A stretch of 36,265 nucleotides of DNA from Actinomycetota bacterium (lineage in GTDB: Bacteria; Actinomycetota; Acidimicrobiia; Spongiisociales; UBA5794): NCBI GenBank assembly GCA_030123765.1, contig JASJXX010000020.1, forward strand, positions 1 through 36,265. Reading direction: 5' to 3'. A program made the translations under genes and the position numbers. This document shows positions 10,722 through 23,814 of the stretch, piece by piece. Below the pieces are notes generated by a model that did no database searches, had not been told where the DNA came from, and worked only from the letters and a program-made list of their open reading frames with translations. Numbering within the stretch: the stretch's first letter is position 1; each line of letters starts with the position of its first letter.

Positions 10722-12737
10722 TCACGAGCTGTAATCACCGACGGTGAGCCTGATCACGGTCCCCGGCTGCACCCAGTCCCCTGGAGCGATGCTCTGTGTG
10801 AGCACGATGTTGTGCTGGCTCGGGCTGTCGACGAACCCTGGTTCTTTCTGCGCTCGCAGGCCGACGCCTTCAAGCCTGGAGAGCGCTTGCTCCCATGTGA
10901 TTCCCAGGAGAGAACCGAGCTTCACCGGGCAGTCGACCGGCTCACCCGTCACCTCGCACGGGTGGACGAGGTACTGCTCAGAGAGAGGGCGGTACCGGTG
11001 AGTGAGACGCAGATCGATCTCGGTGCTTCCATCGGGGTACGTCACGATCCGGTCGACCTTCACGAAGAAGCCGTCGATACCCGATCGGATCTTCTCTCGC
11101 TGCCCCGGGTCGAGCTCCCCCTCTTCGTCTGCAACGAGTTCCTCCCCGAACTCGATGACGTCCTCCATCTCGTGTGTGTCGTCAGTGCACGTGAGGCCAC
11201 CGTTGTCTCCGTAGATCTTCACAGTGATCGACGTCTCGGTGTAGGCAGTCGCGATCACCAGCGGATGGTCGGTGTTGTTCTTGAACCGCATGTCGGGGTT
11301 AGGCAGGCCGAGTGTTGCCTCGCGTCCCATCGGGTAGCGGCTCAGGTAGAGCGAGTGTGGCTGATGAACGACATCTTCGAGGCAGGAGAAGAAGACCGCG
11401 TTGAAGAGCGTTGTGCTGAACTGGCTCACACCACCCCCGATGTTGGAGGGATGATCGCAGCAGTACGGCATGCCGTCGATGAGCACCGGAGCCGCGATGT
11501 AGCCCTTCGCCTGGGTTCTCTCACCGATGTAGGCATTCAGGGACCACTCGTCGCCTGAGAGCACGATCGCTCCGTTCACGTCGTCGGCCATCGTCTGGAT
11601 GTTCGCGACGCGGGCTTCGTGGCCGGGGTGCTCAGTGGTGAAACCGGCGAGAGGCCCGAGCGTCGTGAACGCCGTGGCGTCCTCGGTGGTGAACGACGGT
11701 TCGGAGCCCACGAGGAGCGGGAAGCTACCGAACCCTGAGCCGAGGGAAGCTTGCTTCATCTCCTCCACCAGCGCGTCGATGTCGAGAAGCGTGCCGTCAC
11801 GTCCAGGGACAATCGTGAAATCGTCAGTGGCGATATCGATATCGAACTTCGCGTCGACAGGAGCGATCTCGTACTCGGCCCTTCTCGGTTCGAGGATCTC
11901 AAGGACGCGTCCGGGGTCGAAAGAGGTGAGGAGTTGCGTGTCGTCCGCGCTCAGTTCGGCCCGGACAGCGGATACGAGGTGTTCCGGCTGAAAGACGACC
12001 CGGAACCCAACATCTGTTGAGATCAACGTGATCGATGCCATGACCATCCGCGTCATCTCCTGGAGGGCCACGTCGATGTCAGCTGCGGTGAGTATCGGCG
12101 TCGACTCGAGTACCTCGAAGGTCACCCCACTCTTGTCGAGCGTGCTCATCTCTGCAACGACGAGTCTCCGGGCCGCAGCGTGGTCGAGAGAGTGCCCGGG
12201 CCGTGGATACTGCGGCACGATCACCCCGTCGATGACGGCGACACCACCGTTGAAGGCCGGGTTTGGGATCGCCTCCCTCTCCCATGACTCGATCTCGTGC
12301 GCGATGGCGTCGGCGTCGAAAGAGAGCGCAAGAGGAACTTCGTGTGGCGTGGAGAACGACGACAACCAGGAACGGAGATTCGCGAGCACTCCTGCGTCGC
12401 GTCGTGCAGCGAACGCAGCGTCGATGGCGGTGCGCACATCGGCCTGGAGCGTGATCGTGAGCGGTGACAGTTTGAACGTCTGGCCGTTCAAGGTGAATAC
12501 CCCGGTACTCGTGCGTAGCCGGTTCTCGTGTGCTTCGACGGCGAGCGTGGCATCCGCCCTGCTCATGCCACCCACAGACACTCCTGCGACGGTGACGTTG
12601 CGTGCTACCTCATCCCCCGATGTGGCACGATCCGCGAAGTAGATCCCGAGCGGGAGCAGCAGGATAGCGAGCGGGACGATGGCGAATATGGCTCTGGGAA
12701 GCTTCATTCTCGTGTTCTGTGCTTTGGCGAGGCTCAC
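10722..12737 (-). CDS. VanW-domain envelope protein with C-terminal PASTA-like domain (copy 1)
   Basis: A 671-residue protein with an N-terminal membrane anchor (about 14-34) and an extracellular remainder. Two repeated alpha/beta modules follow, the type seen before VanW domains and containing WEREAIPNPAF. The VanW domain comes next, with NIGGGVSQFSTT near residues 430-441, HSLYLSRYPMGREATLG and PDMRFKNNT. The last ~65 residues resemble a PASTA domain, which binds peptidoglycan fragments. VanW proteins are linked to vancomycin resistance clusters and cell-wall biology, but the function is unknown. It is a tandem paralogue of the gene at 12798-14873, 60 bases apart on the same strand. GTG 12737 is 4 bases after TAGACT, so ATG 12707 may be the true start. 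Confidence 0.82.
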   Translation of the reverse strand: MSLAKAQNTRMKLPRAIFAIVPLAILLLPLGIYFADRATSGDEVARNVTVAGVSVGGMSRADATLAVEAHENRLRTSTGVFTLNGQTFKLSPLTITLQADVRTAIDAAFAARRDAGVLANLRSWLSSFSTPHEVPLALSFDADAIAHEIESWEREAIPNPAFNGGVAVIDGVIVPQYPRPGHSLDHAAARRLVVAEMSTLDKSGVTFEVLESTPILTAADIDVALQEMTRMVMASITLISTDVGFRVVFQPEHLVSAVRAELSADDTQLLTSFDPGRVLEILEPRRAEYEIAPVDAKFDIDIATDDFTIVPGRDGTLLDIDALVEEMKQASLGSGFGSFPLLVGSEPSFTTEDATAFTTLGPLAGFTTEHPGHEARVANIQTMADDVNGAIVLSGDEWSLNAYIGERTQAKGYIAAPVLIDGMPYCCDHPSNIGGGVSQFSTTLFNAVFFSCLEDVVHQPHSLYLSRYPMGREATLGLPNPDMRFKNNTDHPLVIATAYTETSITVKIYGDNGGLTCTDDTHEMEDVIEFGEELVADEEGELDPGQREKIRSGIDGFFVKVDRIVTYPDGSTEIDLRLTHRYRPLSEQYLVHPCEVTGEPVDCPVKLGSLLGITWEQALSRLEGVGLRAQKEPGFVDSPSQHNIVLTQSIAPGDWVQPGTVIRLTVGDYSS

Positions 12738-12797: not shown

Positions 12798-14873
12798 CTA
12801 CTCGTCTGGCGTGGTCCCGTCCCAATCCCAGACGAAGATCGTGACGTTCACATCGTCGGGGTCAGCGAGGATGCCCGGACCGGGGCTCGACGACTCGACG
12901 AGGCCGTTGTCGGCTTCGATACTCGTCTCTTTCGGCGCCTCCGTCACGATGAACCCCAGGGACTCCAGCGCGGCTCGTGCGTCGATCGCAGGGAGGCCCG
13001 CGACGGAGGGCAGAACGAGGGGGCATACCCCGTCGCCGCCGACTTTCTCCTCACACGGATGCATCAGAATGATCTGTCGCTCCCCCCGGTAACGCCAGGA
13101 GAAGGACTCTCTGTCGAACTCGACTCCGGCGATGTCGTAAAAGATTCGCGTGGTCCCGATCGTCCAGCCACCGGAGCCCTCGCTCGCGATGAACTCTTCG
13201 CCCGGTAGGACCACACCCTCCTCATCCGCTCGGTAGGTCACCGCGGCGTCTGTGGATCGTGTGCGATACCCGCGCTCCGCGCCGCAGGTGGTCCCACCGT
13301 TGTTCCCGAAGAAGGTGACGGTGATCGTGCGCGGCGTGTAGGACGTCCTGACGATCACGGGAGCTTCGGTATCGTTCTTGAAGACTATGTCGGGGTGCGG
13401 GAATCCGAGAGTTGCCTCTCGACCTTCGGGATACCTGCTGTAGTAGATGCTGTGTGGTGTGTGCGTCACGACCTCAAGGCAGCTGAAAAAGATCGTGTTG
13501 AATATCGTCGTGGCGAACTGGCTCACGCCCCCACCGATGTTGATCGGGTCCTCCGTGCAGGAGAGCTCGCCATTCGCGATGATGCAGTCCGATTTGAAGC
13601 CCTTCTGAGGAGTTCGGCGGCCGACGACCTCGTTGACGGAGAACGTCTCGCCCGGCATCACGATCGAGTCGTCGACCAGGTCAGCCATGAGTTGGATGTT
13701 GTGCACCCGGTTCCGCCCCGGCGTCCATGTGGTGAACTCGGCGAGCTCGTAGAGATCTCCGAAGGCCTCGGCCATCTCGGTGGTGAAGGCAGGCAGAGCG
13801 TCGCTGCCGAGCGGGAGTGTGCCCTCCCCGTCACCGAGAGCGGCGGCCTCGACGGCTGCGGCGACTTCCGCGGCGTCGACGGTGGTGCCATTACGACTGG
13901 GGATGAGCTCGATGGTGTCATTCTCAGGCAGGCCTTCGACGTCCTTCTGCGGCGAGTCCTTGATCCTGAACTGGTCCGGGTAGTCCTCGAAATCGTCGAC
14001 CAACACAATCTTCCAGGCTGCGTCGACAGGGGGGACCTCGAAACTCTCACGCACCGACTCGATGATCCGGGTGATGACAGAGTGGTCAAGTGAGAACCTG
14101 ATCGTCGGATCGTCGCCGTTGACGACCTCCGCCTGGAGGGCACCTGCGAGATCGAACGGATCGACACGCAGTTCGAACTCGTACTCGTCGTTCCTCAGCA
14201 CGACGCCGCGATCGATGATTCTGTTCGCCCTCTGCACGGCGGCGCTTATCTCGGACTCGGTGAGCTTGGGATCGGACTGGACGATGGGGAGTGGGACGAC
14301 CGCACCGCTCTCCGCCTGGAGAGCCGCAAGGAGCAGCGCGGGGGCTGCATCACGATCGATCGCCCTCCCTGAGCGGGGGTACTCGAATTCGACGTTGCGG
14401 TTGACGATCGAGACAGAACCCTCGAAGGCAGGGTTCGGGATCGCCTCGCGTTCCCAGAGAACGAGATGGGATCGCACGACGTCGGCGTCGAGCGATGCCG
14501 CAAGAGGGACATCGATGCCGTTCCTGAAGGCTTTCAGCCAGTCCGCTGCGCCATCCTTGTGAAGGGTGAGCGCTTCGGCAACGGCACTCGAGACGTCGAA
14601 CGTCAGTCCGAGGGCGGACGGGTCGACATCGAAGAGCTGCCCGTTGACTTCGACCTGGGTGATGCGGGCTGTTAGGGCGGCGGCGTATGCCTCAACGGAG
14701 GCGACGGCCTCCTCCTCGGTCTGGCGCGCTACATCGACACCGGAGACGGTGATGTTGCGGGCGACCCTGTCCGATGCACCAACGCTGTCGAGGAGATAGA
14801 TAGAGAGGGGCAGCATCAGGATCAGCGCAGGTATCGCGACGAAGAGCAGAATTCTAGATTTGGAGGTGGCCAT
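12798..14873 (-). CDS. VanW-domain envelope protein with C-terminal PASTA-like domain (copy 2)
   Basis: A 691-residue paralogue of the next gene downstream. It shares the N-terminal anchor (about 8-28), VARNITVSGVDV, LWEREAIPNPAF, the VanW core NIGGGVSQFATT (near 445-456), HSIYYSRYPEGREATLG and PDIVFKNDT. A PASTA-like tail begins at LPSVAGLPAIDARAALESLG. Canonical VanW has GGGVCQ; both copies have Ser in place of Cys. The second alpha/beta module carries an insertion (around DFEDYPDQFRIKDSPQ) missing from copy 1, so the pair has diverged. ATG 14873 has GGGGAAG upstream. TATACT on the minus strand at 14915-14910 is a good -10 box about 37 bases before the start. It likely acts at the outer face of the membrane; the role is unknown. 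Confidence 0.82.
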   Translation of the reverse strand: MATSKSRILLFVAIPALILMLPLSIYLLDSVGASDRVARNITVSGVDVARQTEEEAVASVEAYAAALTARITQVEVNGQLFDVDPSALGLTFDVSSAVAEALTLHKDGAADWLKAFRNGIDVPLAASLDADVVRSHLVLWEREAIPNPAFEGSVSIVNRNVEFEYPRSGRAIDRDAAPALLLAALQAESGAVVPLPIVQSDPKLTESEISAAVQRANRIIDRGVVLRNDEYEFELRVDPFDLAGALQAEVVNGDDPTIRFSLDHSVITRIIESVRESFEVPPVDAAWKIVLVDDFEDYPDQFRIKDSPQKDVEGLPENDTIELIPSRNGTTVDAAEVAAAVEAAALGDGEGTLPLGSDALPAFTTEMAEAFGDLYELAEFTTWTPGRNRVHNIQLMADLVDDSIVMPGETFSVNEVVGRRTPQKGFKSDCIIANGELSCTEDPINIGGGVSQFATTIFNTIFFSCLEVVTHTPHSIYYSRYPEGREATLGFPHPDIVFKNDTEAPVIVRTSYTPRTITVTFFGNNGGTTCGAERGYRTRSTDAAVTYRADEEGVVLPGEEFIASEGSGGWTIGTTRIFYDIAGVEFDRESFSWRYRGERQIILMHPCEEKVGGDGVCPLVLPSVAGLPAIDARAALESLGFIVTEAPKETSIEADNGLVESSSPGPGILADPDDVNVTIFVWDWDGTTPDE

Positions 14874-14977: not shown

Positions 14978-15748
14978 ATGTCACCGTTCAAACCCATAGT
15001 GTCTGCAGAGGAGTTCCCGGTATCTGCGACCCTGTACGTGACCTACCTCAAGTGCCCCCAACAGGCTCTCGCCCGTCTTCAAGGCGTGTACCCGGCACCG
15101 TCGAAGGCTCTCTTACGAGGGAGCCTCGCACACCGAATCTTCGCGAGGCATCTCGTGGAAGGTCCGATCCCCGACGCAGAGTTTGTGCAGGTCTGCAAGG
15201 TGGAGGTAGGGACGCACCTCTCCCGGCAGATGACGAGCCTCGCGCTCAAGGCGTCGGAGTTCAGACAGATCACGGCCGAAGTGACGGAGCTGTACGAGAC
15301 GTTCAAACTGCTCCCCGTAGAAGGTTTCGTCGACGCTGAGGTTGATGTGGGGAGCAGACCCGTGCAAGGAGTCGTGATTCGAGGTCGGGTCGATGCCGTC
15401 TTCCGAGACGAGGACGGCGTACGGATCGCGGATTGGAAGACCGGTGCGTACCTCGACGACGCCGAGGCGCAGCTCGAATTTTACGCAATGGCATGGTGGC
15501 ACACAGAGGGGTCGGTGCCGGCCACACTCGAAGCGGTGTCGCTGAAGACCGGTGAGAAGCGTGTGTCGAAGCCTGGCGATGATGACGTCCAGACGACGGA
15601 ATCCCGGGTCGCGGAGATGATCACCATCCTTCGTGGCGCCATGGATGGGCGTGCTGAGCTGTCACGCAGAGCGGGGCCTCACTGCACCTGGTGCCCGCTC
15701 CTCGAGGAGTGCGACGAAGGAAGAGTCGCTCTCGAGATCCTCGGCTGA
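14978..15748 (+). CDS. PD-(D/E)XK nuclease with Cas4/AddB-like four-cysteine Fe-S site
   Basis: A 256-residue RecB-family nuclease domain standing alone. Catalytic elements in order are RGSLAH (His52), GRVDAVF (Asp139), ADWKTG (Asp152, Lys154) and the QLEFYA motif (Gln165, Tyr169). One Cys before the domain (Cys26, LKCPQQA) and three after it (Cys236, 239, 245; HCTWCPLLEEC) reproduce the [4Fe-4S] clamp of Cas4, AddB and RecB-like exonucleases. It would act on DNA ends. No cas, helicase or recBCD gene is nearby, so the partner is unknown. An in-frame ATG at 14915 exists, but the extra 21 residues look unlike the family. It is divergent from the VanW pair and is followed by mca 38 bases downstream. 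Confidence 0.85.
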   Translation: MSPFKPIVSAEEFPVSATLYVTYLKCPQQALARLQGVYPAPSKALLRGSLAHRIFARHLVEGPIPDAEFVQVCKVEVGTHLSRQMTSLALKASEFRQITAEVTELYETFKLLPVEGFVDAEVDVGSRPVQGVVIRGRVDAVFRDEDGVRIADWKTGAYLDDAEAQLEFYAMAWWHTEGSVPATLEAVSLKTGEKRVSKPGDDDVQTTESRVAEMITILRGAMDGRAELSRRAGPHCTWCPLLEECDEGRVALEILG

Positions 15749-15786: not shown

Positions 15787-16647
15787 ATGCCCCGGACGAT
15801 CCTCGCAATTCATGCCCACCCCGACGACGAAGCCTCGAAGGGGGCTGCCACGGTCGCCAAGTACGTTGCGCAGGGCGCAAGGGCCGTGCTAGTGACCGCG
15901 ACAGGTGGCGAGGCGGGCGAGATCCTCAATCCTGCAATGGACCGCCCCGAGGTTGCCGAGAACCTTGCCGAGATCCGAGCCGGGGAGCTCAAGAAGGCAG
16001 CGGGCATCATCGGATATGGCGAAGTCATCATGCTGGGATACCGGGATTCCGGGATGCCGAACTCCGAACCGAACGGTCACCCGGACGCATTCTGTCGTCA
16101 ACCTTTCGACGAAGTGCTCGAACGCCTCGTCAGCATCGTCCGGCAGGTACGCCCTGACATCGTGTTCGGCTACGACGACCACGAGTTCTATCCCCACCCC
16201 GACCACCTCCTCATACACGACCTCTCCCTCGCGCTTGTCCGCGCCTCAGCCGACGCGCAACGCTTCCCCGAGTCGGGGGAACCGTGGACGATCCAGAAAC
16301 TGTATGCCCCGATATTCAGCCGGGAGCGCATCTCGGTACTTCACGAGGCGCTGCTTGCCGAGACCGGCGAGTCGCCGTTCGGGCCGTGGCTGGAGCGGCT
16401 TGACGGCTCGCAGGATCTTGCTCGGAAGGTGACCAAAATCGATGTGGCAGGGTTCATCGACCAGGGGAGAGAGGCGCTCCGGGCGCACCGCACCCAGGTC
16501 GACCCCGACGGATTCTGGTTTGCCGTACCCACCGACTTCATCGAGTCGGTGTATCCGTGGGAAGACTTTGAGCTGTTGACGTCTGCCGTGGGCTGGAGTG
16601 AGGGCGAGACGGATCTGTTCGATGGCGTTGCAGAGACCAACGAATAA
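15787..16647 (+). CDS. mca: Mycothiol S-conjugate amidase-like protein (PIG-L family)
   Basis: A 286-residue zinc amidase. The metal site is AHPDDE (10-15) and HPDH (137-140); GYRDSGM (84-90) and the full length match Mca rather than short LmbE proteins. Mca cleaves mycothiol conjugates of toxins to a mercapturic acid and GlcN-inositol, and the related MshB makes GlcN-inositol during mycothiol synthesis. The two are paralogues that are hard to separate by eye; Mca is preferred for the TGGEAGEILNPA segment and the C-terminal W-rich tail. It acts in the cytoplasm. GATACT stands 7 bases before ATG 15787 and no ribosome-binding site is visible, so the mRNA may be leaderless. The upstream nuclease gene is only 38 bases away. 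Confidence 0.8.
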   Translation: MPRTILAIHAHPDDEASKGAATVAKYVAQGARAVLVTATGGEAGEILNPAMDRPEVAENLAEIRAGELKKAAGIIGYGEVIMLGYRDSGMPNSEPNGHPDAFCRQPFDEVLERLVSIVRQVRPDIVFGYDDHEFYPHPDHLLIHDLSLALVRASADAQRFPESGEPWTIQKLYAPIFSRERISVLHEALLAETGESPFGPWLERLDGSQDLARKVTKIDVAGFIDQGREALRAHRTQVDPDGFWFAVPTDFIESVYPWEDFELLTSAVGWSEGETDLFDGVAETNE

Positions 16648-16680: not shown

Positions 16681-17970
16681 GTGACGAACCTCGCAGGTGA
16701 CTTCAGAGACGCACTTGACCGAATCCCGCGTGTGCTCCTGGGCAAGGACGATCGCCGCGTTCTCACGGATGCCATGACCTCGGCAGAAATCCTGGAGAAC
16801 CTCGACAGTGCCCCGAGATCGGTCGTTGTCGTTGGCTGCACCGGAGTTGGCAAGTCCGCGCTCGTCAACGCGCTCGTCGGCGTCGACGTGTCGGAGGCGG
16901 ATGTGATCAGACCGACGACGACGGGCATCGTCATGGCGGGATCCTCCGGTCCCGCCCCGATCGAGCACGCAACAGAGTACGTCCTTGCCCCCCTGGCTCC
17001 TGAGGGAATCGTCTTCGTCGACACACCTGCGTGGGATCACGACCCCGACGCTGTTCGATCGGCTCTTGCCGTGGCGGATCTGGTTGTTCTCGTCGTCTCC
17101 CCGGCAAGGTATGGCGACGCGTCGACGAGGACACTCCTTGACGCAGTGTCCCATGTGCCCGCGATGATGGTCGTCCTCAACCGGGTGGCCACCCCGACCG
17201 ACGAACGCGACGTTCTTGTTCGCTTGGTGCAGGAGCGGCTCAATGTGGCAGACCTCATCGTCATCAACGAGCACGGTGATATGGGTGGCCTTCTGCCGGC
17301 GACGCTCGCGTATCTTCCCTCCGAGAGTCCGAAGACGCGGAAGGCCGCTGTCGTGCGGGCAGCGGCGTCCCACGCCGGCAATCACCTCGCCTCGGTGGTG
17401 ACCGGCACGGCGCGTGAGATCGGCGGAGTCCGTGACGCCCTGGAAGAGATCGGCATCCCTGGAGTCGCCGACAGGGGACTCACCGTGCTCGAGAGCTGGC
17501 TCGCGACCCATCAGGTGCTGATCGAACATGTCAGGTGCGAGATAGAGACGTTTGACAGAAGAGTCGTTGTCGTAGCCGACAGCGCGGTGGTCGATCGGAT
17601 GAACGCCGAGTTGCCAGAGTGGGACGATCGTCCCCTTCAGTGCCACCTCGACGACTGGTTTCTCTCCGCAGCCGACCGGTTCCGAGGCGCCGCCAGAGTC
17701 CGTTGGCGGCGATCCTCGAGCGAGCGTCTCCTCGGCCAGGTGTCGTGGAAGGTTGGCGTGAACCCGTCGGTGACGATCTCGAAGCGGGCGGCGCGCTTGA
17801 TGGGAGCGAACCTCGACTCTGCGATCGGTAACGTTCACGACCAGCTGGTCACGATCCTCGACGAGGAGCTTCGCTTGAGGCGCGGCGCGTGGCGGGCGCT
17901 GGTAAACGTCTGCGGAGATTTCCAGCCCGGGGAACTCGCTGCCGCGGCCGACGCGATCGGTAGCCGATGA
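16681..17970 (+). CDS. Dynamin-like GTPase, first of a pair, with degenerate G4 motif
   Basis: A 429-residue P-loop GTPase. G1 is GCTGVGKS (52-59), G2 lies in RPTTTG (77-82), and G3 is DTPA (114-117), with Ala where Gly is usual. The G4 position reads NRVA (167-170) instead of (N/T)KxD, losing the Asp that selects guanine. The remaining 230 residues are mostly helical and contain no clear membrane segment. Tandem dynamin-like GTPases are known in actinobacteria (Streptomyces DynA/DynB, mycobacterial IniA/IniC) and act in membrane remodelling; the assignment here is by analogy. It overlaps the second GTPase by ATGA. GTG 16681 has no clear Shine-Dalgarno, and TAGGCT (16674-16679) lies too close for this start to be certain. 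Confidence 0.72.
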   Translation: MTNLAGDFRDALDRIPRVLLGKDDRRVLTDAMTSAEILENLDSAPRSVVVVGCTGVGKSALVNALVGVDVSEADVIRPTTTGIVMAGSSGPAPIEHATEYVLAPLAPEGIVFVDTPAWDHDPDAVRSALAVADLVVLVVSPARYGDASTRTLLDAVSHVPAMMVVLNRVATPTDERDVLVRLVQERLNVADLIVINEHGDMGGLLPATLAYLPSESPKTRKAAVVRAAASHAGNHLASVVTGTAREIGGVRDALEEIGIPGVADRGLTVLESWLATHQVLIEHVRCEIETFDRRVVVVADSAVVDRMNAELPEWDDRPLQCHLDDWFLSAADRFRGAARVRWRRSSSERLLGQVSWKVGVNPSVTISKRAARLMGANLDSAIGNVHDQLVTILDEELRLRRGAWRALVNVCGDFQPGELAAAADAIGSR

Positions 17971-18869
17971 GCAACCTCGGCGCGCTCTGCGACCTGGCCG
18001 ACCTCGCTGTAGTGCGGAGCGAAGAGGCGCTCTCCCACGAATCGCGGGAGCACCTCGCGTCGGTCGCACGAAGGGCGCGGCGGAGACGCGGCTTTCTCGG
18101 CGAGGTGCTCGTGGTTGCCTTCGCGGGAGGGACAGGGACAGGAAAGTCCTCCCTCATCAACGAGATTGTCGGAGAGCCCGTTGCTGCAGTCGGGATTGCA
18201 CGGCCGACGACGACTGAGGCGCTGGCTGTCATTCCCGGTGCGACGATGGCAGGCTTCGATGGCCTCCTCGACGAGCTTGGGGTAGGACGACGTGTCGAAT
18301 CGGACCTGCTCGATTCGTTGATGCTTGTGGATCTCCCGGACTTCGACAGCACACAGGAGGCGAACAGGCGCATCGTTGAGGACGTCCTTCCCCGTGTGGA
18401 CGCGGTTGTGTGGGTGGCTGACCCCGAGAAGTACGCCGACGCCGTGATCCACGTCGATTTCCTCTCAGCCTGGAGCCAGTACGAAGGTCAGTTCATCTTC
18501 GTGCTGAACCAGGTCGACAGACTCGAGGGTGAAGCGGACCGTGTCGTTGCCCATTTCGCAGACCTGCTCACCCGTGACGGCTTCACCACACCTGAAGTTG
18601 TCCAGACGATCGCTCGTGGGCCCGACAAAGACATCTCCCCGCTCAGGAGTGCCCTCGCCGACAGGCTCGACACGAAGCGGACCGTGATAGCGAAGCTTGC
18701 TACGGATCTCAAGATCGCTGCCCAGAACGCCTGGATCGAAGCCGGGTCGTCAGCCCGGTCGGGCATCGGTGACGCTGCACTCCGCGACCGGATCTCCCTT
18801 GCCGCGGCCACATTTGTATCGTTGGGAGTCGCAGCGGCAGATCTGCTGCACCAGATGGCAGAGGAGTGA
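17967..18869 (+). CDS. Dynamin-like GTPase, second of a pair
   Basis: A 300-residue GTPase with intact motifs: G1 GGTGTGKS (54-61), G2 in RPTTTE (79-84), G3 DLPD within VDLPDFDST (121-129) and G4 NQVD (181-184). The stretch VVWVADPEKYADA is typical of actinobacterial dynamin-family proteins. It is much shorter than usual dynamin-like proteins: only about 110 residues follow G4, ending in the moderately hydrophobic helix ISLAAATFVSLGVAAADLL, which might touch membrane. The start ATG overlaps the first GTPase's stop (ATGA), and the MscS gene begins 6 bases after the stop, so all three are probably translated together. It is likely the active partner of the pair, given its intact G4. Confidence 0.75.
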   Translation: MSNLGALCDLADLAVVRSEEALSHESREHLASVARRARRRRGFLGEVLVVAFAGGTGTGKSSLINEIVGEPVAAVGIARPTTTEALAVIPGATMAGFDGLLDELGVGRRVESDLLDSLMLVDLPDFDSTQEANRRIVEDVLPRVDAVVWVADPEKYADAVIHVDFLSAWSQYEGQFIFVLNQVDRLEGEADRVVAHFADLLTRDGFTTPEVVQTIARGPDKDISPLRSALADRLDTKRTVIAKLATDLKIAAQNAWIEAGSSARSGIGDAALRDRISLAAATFVSLGVAAADLLHQMAEE

Positions 18870-18875
18870 CAGGTC

Positions 18876-19745
18876 GTGGATTTAGTTCAAGAGTGGCTGA
18901 GTAGTTTTGCGCAAGAGAGTGGTGGCGAGGTCGTGAGCACCCTCTCGCTGATCCTGGGTGCGTTCGTAGTCCTCTGGTTCTTGAAGCGGGCAGTCCTGCA
19001 ATGGTCGAACACAGTCGACAAGCGGTACATCGACTCCTCCGACCATGAAGATCGTGAGCGCGGCCAGCGAATGATCACGATCACCCGGGTCATCCAAGCA
19101 CTCATCAGGGTCGTCGTCTGGGCAGTCGTCCTGCTCACGGCGATGGGGATCTGGGGTATCCCGATGACGCCTCTGATAGCGATCGGCACGACGATCGGCA
19201 TCGCTGTCGGCTTCGGCGCCCAGGATCTGGTTCGAGACGTCATCAGTGGGTTCTTCATTCTCATTGAAGACCAGTTCGGTATCGGCGACGTCGTCTCGAT
19301 TGCCGGTGTCAGCGGGACGGTAGAAGCGATAAGGCTCAGGACGACGGTGCTCCGTGACCTCAACGGGAACATGCATCACGTTCCCAACGGGCAGATAACG
19401 GTTGCATCGAACAGAACCCCGGACTTCGCGAGGATCGTCGCAGACATAGGCGTCTCGTACGACACCGATGTCGACCACGCGATCGAAGTAATTTTTGATG
19501 AGGCCACGTTGTTGGCCAACGACCCTGAGTGGTCCGACAGTTTCATTCAGGCCCCTGACATGCTTGGCGTCAACGAGCTCGCCGACTCAGCAGTGGTGAT
19601 CAGGGTCCTTGCCACGGTCGTCACCGAGGACCGATGGGCGGTGAAGCGGGAATTCCTGCGGCGCATCAAAAACCGGCTCGACGCTGAAGGAATCGAGATC
19701 CCGTTCAACTACTTGAGCGTCGTCCTTCGGAACGAGTCGGAGTGA
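18876..19745 (+). CDS. Small-conductance mechanosensitive channel (MscS family)
   Basis: A 289-residue MscS-type channel. Three membrane segments are visible: about 20-37, 72-95, and the pore helix TM3 at about 97-127 with the Gly/Ala-rich GTTIGIAVGFGAQDLVRD, followed by the conserved kink and FFILIEDQFGIGDVV of the beta domain. VPNGQI and the alpha/beta C-terminal domain (RIKNRLDAEGIEIPFNY) are typical. MscS channels open under membrane tension and release solutes on hypo-osmotic shock. GTG 18876 follows GAGGAG at 18861-18866. It is the third gene of the unit with two dynamin-like GTPases. Its last 37 bases overlap the end of the convergent lipid kinase gene. Confidence 0.9.
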   Translation: MDLVQEWLSSFAQESGGEVVSTLSLILGAFVVLWFLKRAVLQWSNTVDKRYIDSSDHEDRERGQRMITITRVIQALIRVVVWAVVLLTAMGIWGIPMTPLIAIGTTIGIAVGFGAQDLVRDVISGFFILIEDQFGIGDVVSIAGVSGTVEAIRLRTTVLRDLNGNMHHVPNGQITVASNRTPDFARIVADIGVSYDTDVDHAIEVIFDEATLLANDPEWSDSFIQAPDMLGVNELADSAVVIRVLATVVTEDRWAVKREFLRRIKNRLDAEGIEIPFNYLSVVLRNESE

Positions 19746-20662
19746 TCTGAAGGTCGAAGAACGAGCATTGCATCCTGTACCGGCGCGATCTCAAGATAGC
19801 TCGCGGTTCCGATGATCTCACCATCAGCGTGGAACGGCGTCGCAGGTTCAGCCTCGATGGTGAGTGACTGGTAATTGGTCCACAGTCTGATCCCCGTGGC
19901 ATCTCTGTGCTTCCGGCCGAAGGCTGCCCGGGCGAAGATCTCCGAGGCCCGGGCGATGCCGAGGCTGCCGGCTGCGAGCGTCGCGATTCCGTCCACGTGT
20001 TCGCTCGTGAGGTGGAGGGGGACCCGCCCGAAGTATGTGTAGGGGCGGTGCACCTGGGTCATCGCGATGACACCGTCGAATCGGTCGCCGTTGCATGTCA
20101 GTCGCAGGTGCGGATCGTAGCTCCGCCATGTGGAGACGAGCCGGCCGATGGCTGTCCTGGCATAGTGGATCCCGCCGAAGCGCAACTTCGCGTAAGGGCG
20201 GGACTCAGCGATGGCGATGACGTCTGCGTCGAAACCGATCCCGAGCGAGAACATCGCGTACCGGGTGTTCGGTCCCGTCTCCGTCTCCGCATCGACTCGA
20301 ACCATGCGGGTCGGGTTCGGCAGGAGATCTGCAGACGCGTTCGCCGCAGCGAGCGGCTTTAACGGAATGCCAAAGATCCGCGCGAGGACGTTGGTCGTGC
20401 CCGCAGGGATGAGCCCGAGGGCCGTGTCGGTGCCCACGAGGGCGTTCGCAACGTAGTGGGCAACCCCGTCCCCGCCCATGGCGAACACGACATCGACACC
20501 ACGCTCGGCCGCTCTGGCAGCTTCACGGCTCGTCTCCACGGTGCTCACCGGCCACTCGGTTGTGAGGTCGAAGGTCTTGGAGAGCGATGCGACTACGTTA
20601 CGAAACACTCCGCCGGTGAATTGGGATGCCGACGGGTTCGCAATGAGTACAGCGGAGCGCAT
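19709..20662 (-). CDS. Diacylglycerol kinase-like lipid kinase (YegS/DgkB family)
   Basis: A 317-residue kinase of the diacylglycerol/sphingosine kinase catalytic fold. Seen are IANPSA at the start (7-12), the nucleotide motif GGDGV (63-67), PAGTTNVLAR (86-95, the usual GTGND region) and the C-terminal FHADGEI. Such enzymes phosphorylate diacylglycerol or related lipids at the membrane, returning them to phosphatidate. ATG 20662 has no Shine-Dalgarno but is exactly 6 bases after TACCCT on the minus strand, predicting a leaderless mRNA. The open frame continues to 20725, but the added residues look unrelated. It ends inside the convergent MscS gene, with 37 bases shared. The response-regulator gene lies 63 bases upstream on the same strand. 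Confidence 0.85.
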   Translation of the reverse strand: MRSAVLIANPSASQFTGGVFRNVVASLSKTFDLTTEWPVSTVETSREAARAAERGVDVVFAMGGDGVAHYVANALVGTDTALGLIPAGTTNVLARIFGIPLKPLAAANASADLLPNPTRMVRVDAETETGPNTRYAMFSLGIGFDADVIAIAESRPYAKLRFGGIHYARTAIGRLVSTWRSYDPHLRLTCNGDRFDGVIAMTQVHRPYTYFGRVPLHLTSEHVDGIATLAAGSLGIARASEIFARAAFGRKHRDATGIRLWTNYQSLTIEAEPATPFHADGEIIGTASYLEIAPVQDAMLVLRPSDHSDSFRRTTLK

Positions 20663-20668
20663 GGTGAA

Positions 20669-20674
20669 AGGGTA
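20669..20674 (-). promoter_or_regulatory. Predicted -10 box of a leaderless lipid kinase transcript
   Basis: On the minus strand TACCCT is followed by 6 bases and ATG 20662. There is no ribosome-binding site between them. Confidence 0.5.
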
Positions 20675-20725
20675 ACGACCGCTCCGTGATGAGAACGCTC
20701 CGCATCCAGATGTGGGCCTCTGCAC

Positions 20726-22863: not shown

Positions 22864-23814
22864 TCAGTTCTCGCCGGTGTAGGTGTACCAGATGACTGCG
22901 TTCCCGAGCGTGTCCGACACGATGACCGTGTCCCCCCCGTTCGACCAGACGGCGCCATCGTTGCACCAGTGGATGGCGCTGACCGTCCCACCTGCGCACC
23001 CCGTGATCACTGTCACCGTGTCGCCGGGAGCAAGGACGGTCCCGGAAGGAAAGGTCAACCGGTTGCGAGAGCTCTCATCGCGAAGCACCCACCCGGACAA
23101 CGACACGCGTCCGTAGCCCTCATTCGTGATCGTGACCCACTCGTTCTCGAGGTTGTCGTCGTCGGGGCCAGGAGGGTCGAACTGGATTTCAGAGACTCTG
23201 ATGACGGGTCTGTCCGCGCTCGTTCCTTCGGCGTCGCCACAGACGAAGGTTCCCCACATACCCCGTCCCGATTGGAACGCTGTCGCCTCAAGGGCCTTGA
23301 AGGTGCGCTCGTACGCATGCCCGTTCTGCAACCCGATGGCGTTCCCCTGTGCAACCATCATCGAGTTGATGAATATCGGTCCCTCCGCCGTCTCGAGGAG
23401 GAGGTATCGAAGGAGGCGACCGAACGCGTCGGTGTCCTCCCCTCCTGAGACGAGCACGACATCTTTCCCAGCGATGGCATTCGCCAGCAGGGCCGTTGCG
23501 TCGGGACCCCAACACTCGGACATCTCGGGCGCGTTGATACCGAGGAGACGGACATCGTGCGGGGCCCCGTCGATGCGCATCTTCACGGTGTCTCCGTCTG
23601 TGACAGAGATCACCGAGCCCATGACACGTTCCTCTGGCGGCGGAAGCGTCGGAGGAACGCTCGTCACCCTCGCTACACCGACTGCTGTCGTCGTCGTAGA
23701 CGCCACATCGAAGACTTCGGGCGTCGGGCGCGTGTTGCATCCCCCTGCCACCAGCGCGAGAGCGAGGAGGAGGACGAGGAGACCAACCCCCCTGTGTACG
23801 GCGTGTCGGCGCAT
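22864..23814 (-). CDS. Secreted lipoprotein: thermonuclease (SNase-like) plus lamin-tail domain
   Basis: A 316-residue lipoprotein. The signal peptide ends in the lipobox VAGGC (Cys26), followed by a Thr/Pro-rich linker. The SNase domain (about 65-185) keeps the catalytic-site pattern: DGDT (73-76), Arg89 and Glu97 in RLLGINAPE, and Arg133 in FGRLLRY. The Asp usually found in DTPE is Asn (INAPE). The C-terminal ~115 residues form a lamin-tail (LTD) beta domain: VSEIQFDPPG, ENEWVTITN, LSGWVLRDES, FPSGTVLAPGDTVTV and NDGAVWSNGGDTVIV. It would be a membrane-anchored nuclease for extracellular DNA or RNA. ATG 23814 is exactly 6 bases after TACCGT with no ribosome-binding site. It is divergent from the SDR at 23909. 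Confidence 0.85.
   Translation of the reverse strand: MRRHAVHRGVGLLVLLLALALVAGGCNTRPTPEVFDVASTTTTAVGVARVTSVPPTLPPPEERVMGSVISVTDGDTVKMRIDGAPHDVRLLGINAPEMSECWGPDATALLANAIAGKDVVLVSGGEDTDAFGRLLRYLLLETAEGPIFINSMMVAQGNAIGLQNGHAYERTFKALEATAFQSGRGMWGTFVCGDAEGTSADRPVIRVSEIQFDPPGPDDDNLENEWVTITNEGYGRVSLSGWVLRDESSRNRLTFPSGTVLAPGDTVTVITGCAGGTVSAIHWCNDGAVWSNGGDTVIVSDTLGNAVIWYTYTGEN

Follow-up and report, generated by a model that had tools for sequence, protein, structure and literature searches.

Bacterial dynamin-like proteins act as operon-encoded pairs that tether membranes (PMC6104087). Streptomyces DynA and DynB work at sporulation septa and stabilise division rings (PMC8748795), mycobacterial IniA causes membrane fission (PMC6715688), and DynA of Bacillus subtilis guards membranes, giving protection from antibiotics and from phage-induced lysis (PMC8844932). 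Dynamin-like pairs are widespread in Actinomycetota. Here, we describe a locus in a 36,265 nucleotide stretch of Actinomycetota DNA, referred to as the window, in which two dynamin-like GTPase genes, named GT1 and GT2, are followed by a gene for an MscS-family mechanosensitive channel. The source genome is 2.2 Mb and 98.6% complete, the locus is on contig C49, and the named relatives of the genome are metagenome-assembled genomes (MAGs) of Acidimicrobiia, Actinomycetota. An earlier interpretation of the window, made from the letters alone and here called the sequence-only reading, knew of no described system with this composition, and we found no published operon of dynamin-like proteins and a mechanosensitive channel in the open-access papers searched. 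The explanation that we favour, to which we give a probability of about 0.5, is an order-specific extension of a DynA/B-type GTPase operon by a dedicated MscS, with the role of the GTPases kept and MscS relieving tension at the same sites. The components of the unit are:

16681..17970, + strand: GT1, dynamin-like GTPase, 429 aa, GTG start (Pfam, AlphaFold2, motif survey)
17967..18869, + strand: GT2, dynamin-like GTPase, 300 aa, ATG start (Pfam, AlphaFold2, motif survey)
17967..17970, + strand: GT1-GT2 stop/start overlap, ATGA, 4 nt (sequence)
18862..18867, + strand: ribosome-binding site for MscS, GAGGAG, within the final GT2 codons (sequence)
18876..19745, + strand: MscS-family mechanosensitive channel of the GTPase-linked clade, 289 aa, GTG start (Pfam, tree)

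Attachment of MscS to the GTPase pair

The locus was compared across 138 genomes of one order of Acidimicrobiia, the families of which are coded f1 to f8. As MscS directly follows GT2 in 51 of these genomes, distributed over f1, f3, f5 and f6, the arrangement is not a product of chance. Of the 138 genomes, 49 carry a full-length MscS whose score against the profile of the linked channel exceeds 320 bits, while all other MscS scored below 260 bits. In 46 of the 49, the channel gene comes immediately after GT2 and is on one contig with it, and the remaining three are cut by contig ends (G579 and G507) or have an insertion between GT2 and MscS (G515). Five shortened or contig-cut MscS (G602, G595, G605, G589 and G564) are also directly downstream of GT2, and the linked copy in G607 is at a contig end. 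No full-length MscS of the linked clade was found at an unrelated locus in the 138 genomes.

The junctions are compact. MscS begins 6 nt past the GT2 stop codon in the window, and the GT1-GT2 spacing of -4 is seen again in many relatives. In all 48 GT2-MscS junctions that were measured, a plausible MscS start is available at a position from about -14 to +49 nt relative to the GT2 stop codon, and a 4-nt ATGA or GTGA overlap is possible at 12 of them. Tight junctions, of a kind predicted to be prone to coupling, have been kept across four families of the order. In a single MAG (G583; L171:8962-11097), GT2 and MscS are one in-frame open reading frame (ORF) of 711 aa, which we take as suggestive. 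The coordinates, the ATGA overlap and the 6-nt gap given in the sequence-only reading were all recovered from the sequence, and the translational coupling that it proposed is feasible, given how tight the junctions are across the order.

The window MscS is an authentic member of its family, as the sequence-only reading had it, with matches above the cut-off to all three Pfam MscS domains, namely the beta domain (3e-19), the C-terminal domain (3e-14) and transmembrane (TM) segments 2/3 (1e-5). Gating by tension is predicted from the family. The linked MscS form a single clade (SH-aLRT 99, stem branch 0.59), in which the GFGAQ region of TM3 is conserved and clade-specific residues are located on the cytoplasmic part (V176, E209, W219, R253, L261 and R267).

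On the GT2 tree, the presence of MscS requires seven changes of state, which is best read as one gain followed by about six losses. A gene resembling IF-2B/ribose-1,5-bisphosphate isomerase (IF2B; L061:11942-12766 and relatives) occupies the slot after GT2, or after MscS, in f2, f4, f5 and f6. Since f5 and f6 include genomes with the order GT1-GT2-MscS-IF2B, MscS and IF2B may both go back to the ancestor of the order, with different lineages keeping one or the other. The gene that follows GT2 in f2, f4 and f5 (cluster 14) was considered as a candidate MscS because of its similar size, but was rejected as it is this IF-2B/ribose-bisphosphate-isomerase-like protein.

Shortened and missing channels were also found. 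Three genera of f3 include linked MscS copies of only 171-174 aa (L189, L190, L193 and L194), which stop in the beta domain and so have no C-terminal domain. In genus g26 (L195, L196 and L197; six species) the pair has been deleted, and a shortened MscS, consisting of the TM and beta domains only, was left in place between VanW-domain and MFS genes. Family f7 has no linked MscS, and GT2 is absent from it except for one genome with a divergent GT2.

The GTPase pair in the order and the phylum

A sequence search of the PDB with the window proteins returned chance-level matches only, and a fold search was therefore needed. The AlphaFold2 model of GT2 (pLDDT 88.6, pTM 0.86) was nearest in Foldseek to mini-mitofusin (5yew, TM-score up to 0.62), then to Fzo1 and Cj-DLP1/2. 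The GT1 model (pLDDT 89.1, pTM 0.69) was nearest to mycobacterial IniA (6j72), then to cyanobacterial BDLP, at low TM-scores of about 0.3 that are expected if its helical part is differently arranged. On these modelled structures, the fold of both proteins places them in the dynamin superfamily. In Pfam, GT2 matches Dynamin_N (7e-10), and the only model above the cut-off for GT1 is MMR_HSR1 (5e-8), a general GTPase model.

The modelled GT1 has a GTPase domain and long helices resembling a neck and trunk, with a basic/aromatic stretch. GT2 has the GTPase domain and neck helices only and ends after the neck, lacking the approximately 230-residue C-terminal region with TM segments that is found in longer relatives. 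The GT2 of families f4, f5 and f6 are 520-550 aa and include two hydrophobic segments. Segments of the window GTPases that hydropathy called as TM were rejected as membrane helices, and are probably strands of the beta core. Second, longer dynamin-like pairs bearing TM segments were observed elsewhere in genomes of families f3 and f8 (L043, L045 and L051).

The two proteins differ in their nucleotide-binding motifs. In GT1, the P-loop (GCTGVGKS) and the RPTT switch are present, but G4 is degenerate (LNRVA) and lacks its Asp. The common GT1 G4 motifs across the order (LNRLP, LNRVA and similar) likewise have no Asp, so the alteration is not local decay, and the P-loop Lys has been lost about four separate times (G121/G545/G546, G574/G575, G026 and G524). 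In GT2, the P-loop (GGTGTGKS) and G4 (LNQVD, fitting N-x-x-D) are intact, and the P-loop, RPTT switch and N-x-x-D are present across the order and the phylum. Replacement of the P-loop Lys was not seen in 83 GT2 from the order or 74 from other Actinomycetota, and the common G4 motifs of these sequences are all N-x-x-D. The G3 of GT2 (DLPDFDS) has DLPD in place of DxxG, as in the whole family. As GT1 lacks the G4 Asp and has repeatedly lost the P-loop Lys while GT2 has kept its motifs, GT1 is likely the structural or regulatory partner and GT2 the GTPase of the pair.

The pair is an ordinary actinobacterial pair of the DynA/B type. It is widespread in Actinomycetota: both genes occur at about 67 of the 80 named loci, and in a phylum-wide sample of 396 genomes, 92 gave a GT2 match. 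Elsewhere in the phylum, GT2 is commonly followed by genes for a single-strand binding protein (SSB) and EttA. This neighbourhood is conserved in many Actinomycetota (e.g. L071, L080 and L117 from Janibacter, Kribbia and Nocardioidaceae). Among the pairs surveyed, none outside the order is adjoined by MscS, and the closest MscS proteins from outside the order (G172, G238, G411, G398, G153 and others) have no neighbouring GTPase pair. In Cellulomonadaceae (L100), a fragment of MscS close to GT2 was set aside, as it is not adjacent and is on the opposite strand.

Several proposals of the sequence-only reading can be set against these data. The dynamin-like identity of both proteins agrees with the fold matches and Dynamin_N, the assignment to a tandem pair of actinobacterial type agrees with the phylum survey, and the altered G4 of GT1 is order-wide. 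The motifs of GT2 were described as intact, which holds for the P-loop and G4 and not for G3, where the departure is family-wide. The sequence-only reading would have been undermined had MscS adjoined the GTPases only in this genome or its near relatives while the pair travelled with other genes elsewhere, and this pattern was half borne out. The pair does travel with SSB and EttA elsewhere, yet the three-gene arrangement extends well beyond near relatives to 51 genomes in four families, all confined to one order.

Genes around the unit

Three further genes flank GT1-GT2-MscS:

19709..20725, - strand: DAGK_cat gene, convergent on the unit (Pfam DAGK_cat 6e-19)
15787..16647, + strand: PIG-L deacetylase gene, ending 33 nt before GT1, a possible operon start (Pfam)
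14999..15748, + strand: PDDEXK nuclease-superfamily gene, upstream of PIG-L, a conserved neighbour (Pfam)

The 3' ends of the convergent DAGK_cat and MscS genes overlap by 37 nt. The DAGK_cat gene corresponds to the lipid kinase gene already recognised in the sequence-only reading, and is a conserved neighbour whether MscS is present or absent. As the PIG-L and PDDEXK genes are in the same direction as GT1 with small gaps, the transcription unit may be longer than the three genes. Two tandem VanW/PASTA-domain proteins (10722-12707 and 12798-14873, - strand; domains identified on the ortholog L034:2105-4087) adjoin the unit, and this protein is single in most other families of the order. A protein with staphylococcal-nuclease and lamin-tail domains (22867-23814, - strand) is conserved near the locus. 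Divergent to GT1 in families f2, f3, f4, f6, f8 and part of f1 is a conserved protein of about 420 aa (cluster 17; L060:5485-6783 and relatives), for which no match was found in Pfam or NCBIfam.

Explanations for the association and comparison with known systems

In the explanation favoured here, GT1 and GT2 would assemble at the inner membrane into a heterotypic scaffold, with GT2 hydrolysing GTP and GT1 giving most of the trunk. MscS would be the working tension valve of the cell, and its synthesis in step with the GTPases would bring tension relief where and when they bend or reseal the membrane, at the septum or in a stressed envelope. Functional coupling between the GTPases and MscS is plausible. 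A stronger form of the idea, in which the pair is bound to its own MscS as a GTP-regulated tension-release machine, with bending and resealing mechanically coupled to the opening or placement of the channel and the GT2-MscS fusion as its single-chain form, appears unlikely.

The distribution of other MscS bears on these ideas. Stand-alone MscS, defined as those scoring 180-260 bits, were taken as one ortholog group and occupy their own part of the tree. Only three of the 138 genomes have both types, while 52 have the linked type only, 60 the stand-alone type only and 23 neither. This exclusion has a Fisher probability of 5e-16, or 6e-14 when restricted to genomes of 90% completeness or more, with kinship uncorrected. 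Five independent contrasts between linked and stand-alone MscS were available on the tree, none in the same direction and a mean of 4.2 in opposite directions, which are too few for significance alone. Neither a second MscS (E<=1e-6) nor an MscL was found in the window genome. The near-exclusion is most simply explained by two valves that can stand in for each other and have been lost reciprocally, in which case the linked channel is probably an ordinary working valve of the cell.

A number of observations weigh against a functional link. The near-exclusion points to an ordinary valve that needs no GTPase, and an ordinary working channel makes a specialised repair machine less likely. About six lineages retain the pair without MscS, so the pair does not need the channel. 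In a mirror-tree analysis controlled with pyruvate kinase, GT2-MscS (0.41) was no more strongly correlated than DAGK-MscS (0.40), and DAGK-GT2 reached 0.64, leaving no specificity for GT2-MscS. As the whole locus is syntenic by descent, DAGK included, adjacency alone is weak evidence. The presence of unrelated genes with the pair elsewhere (SSB and EttA; the IF-2B-like gene in f2, f4 and f5) indicates that operon partners need not share a function, and the fusion in G583 may stem from a one-base indel or frame shift near the junction. The proposal of the sequence-only reading that the three proteins work together, for instance in membrane repair or curvature sensing, may hold but is weakened, with the pair widespread, MscS an accessory of one order and the linked channel apparently interchangeable with the stand-alone one.

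The main rival is operon hitchhiking, in which a housekeeping osmotic valve landed once behind a stable, well-expressed pair and is co-transcribed with it without any functional link. We regard this as a serious possibility, though on balance not the probable one. It would account for the near-perfect exclusion, the general synteny and retained DAGK gene, the unrelated genes in pair operons elsewhere and the unspecific mirror-tree signal. However, a full-length MscS has never relocated in the 51 linked genomes of four families, tight overlaps have been kept and in one case the ORFs are fused, and MscS has been lost or shortened where the pair is gone.

Direct mechanical control, in which GT2 uses MscS as a membrane anchor or gates it by a GTP-driven conformational change to give a GTP-controlled channel, is thinly supported and quite improbable. 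The lack of a trunk or TM segment in the window GT2, the fused ORF and the cytoplasmic residues peculiar to the linked MscS clade are consistent with it. However, loss of TM segments does not track the presence of MscS, as f2 has TM-less GTPases and no MscS while f6, G539 and G592/G593 have a TM-bearing GT2 plus MscS, and a role for MscS as substitute anchor was rejected as a rule. Channels without the C-terminal domain are also still found with the pair in G589 and G595. An envelope-stress or anti-phage module like B. subtilis DynA, with MscS discharging tension upon membrane perforation, would draw on the protection that DynA affords (PMC8844932) and on a weak PADLOC match to LeoA (E 1e-6 to 5e-8), but is highly improbable, as that match is restricted to the GTPase domain, LeoBC reached only 0.009, MscS was unmatched, and the unit belongs to a core locus passed on vertically, with pyruvate kinase, VanW-domain and DAGK genes as neighbours and no defence-island features.

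By retaining, across four families, a channel that is predicted to be tension-gated and translationally coupled to the pair, this lineage offers a concrete and testable link between membrane remodelling and tension, and the exclusion of linked and stand-alone MscS amounts to a natural experiment on the contribution of linkage. The asymmetry of the pair, with a probably catalytic GT2 and a degenerate GT1, argues that one partner of such pairs is a regulatory or structural subunit.

Among known systems, Streptomyces DynA/DynB is also a tandem dynamin-like pair. It is probably orthologous to the pair described here, given that the large genomes of family f54, which we take to be Streptomyces, normally have one pair each (two matches) and that two dynamin-like proteins are named there (PMC8748795). 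Unlike the window proteins, those of Streptomyces are longer and their genes precede SSB/EttA-type genes rather than MscS, whereas the window GT2 has no trunk or TM segment. Cj-DLP1/DLP2 of Campylobacter jejuni (5owv/5oxf) are likewise an operon-encoded heterotypic pair and match the folds of GT1 and GT2, but in the solved structure the two partners are full-length, have trunks and form a 2:2 tetramer, and their operon partner is an HcpA-like beta-lactamase and not a channel (PMC6104087). Mycobacterial IniA/IniC are a dynamin-like pair from one operon, and IniA (6j72), the best structural match of GT1, binds membranes via a basic loop and not a TM segment (PMC6715688). However, the iniBAC operon has no channel gene and the sequences are remote. 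Mini-mitofusin (the MFN1 GTPase and first helix bundle, 5yew) has the same domain set as GT2, but shares 15% identity with it, and natural MFN1 has a second bundle and a TM anchor. The window channel has all three Pfam domains and the TM3 GFGAQ region of the small-conductance channel MscS, but the linked MscS are a separate clade found only beside the GTPase pair, and some copies lack the C-terminal domain. The locus thus represents a known type of operon in a form particular to one lineage.

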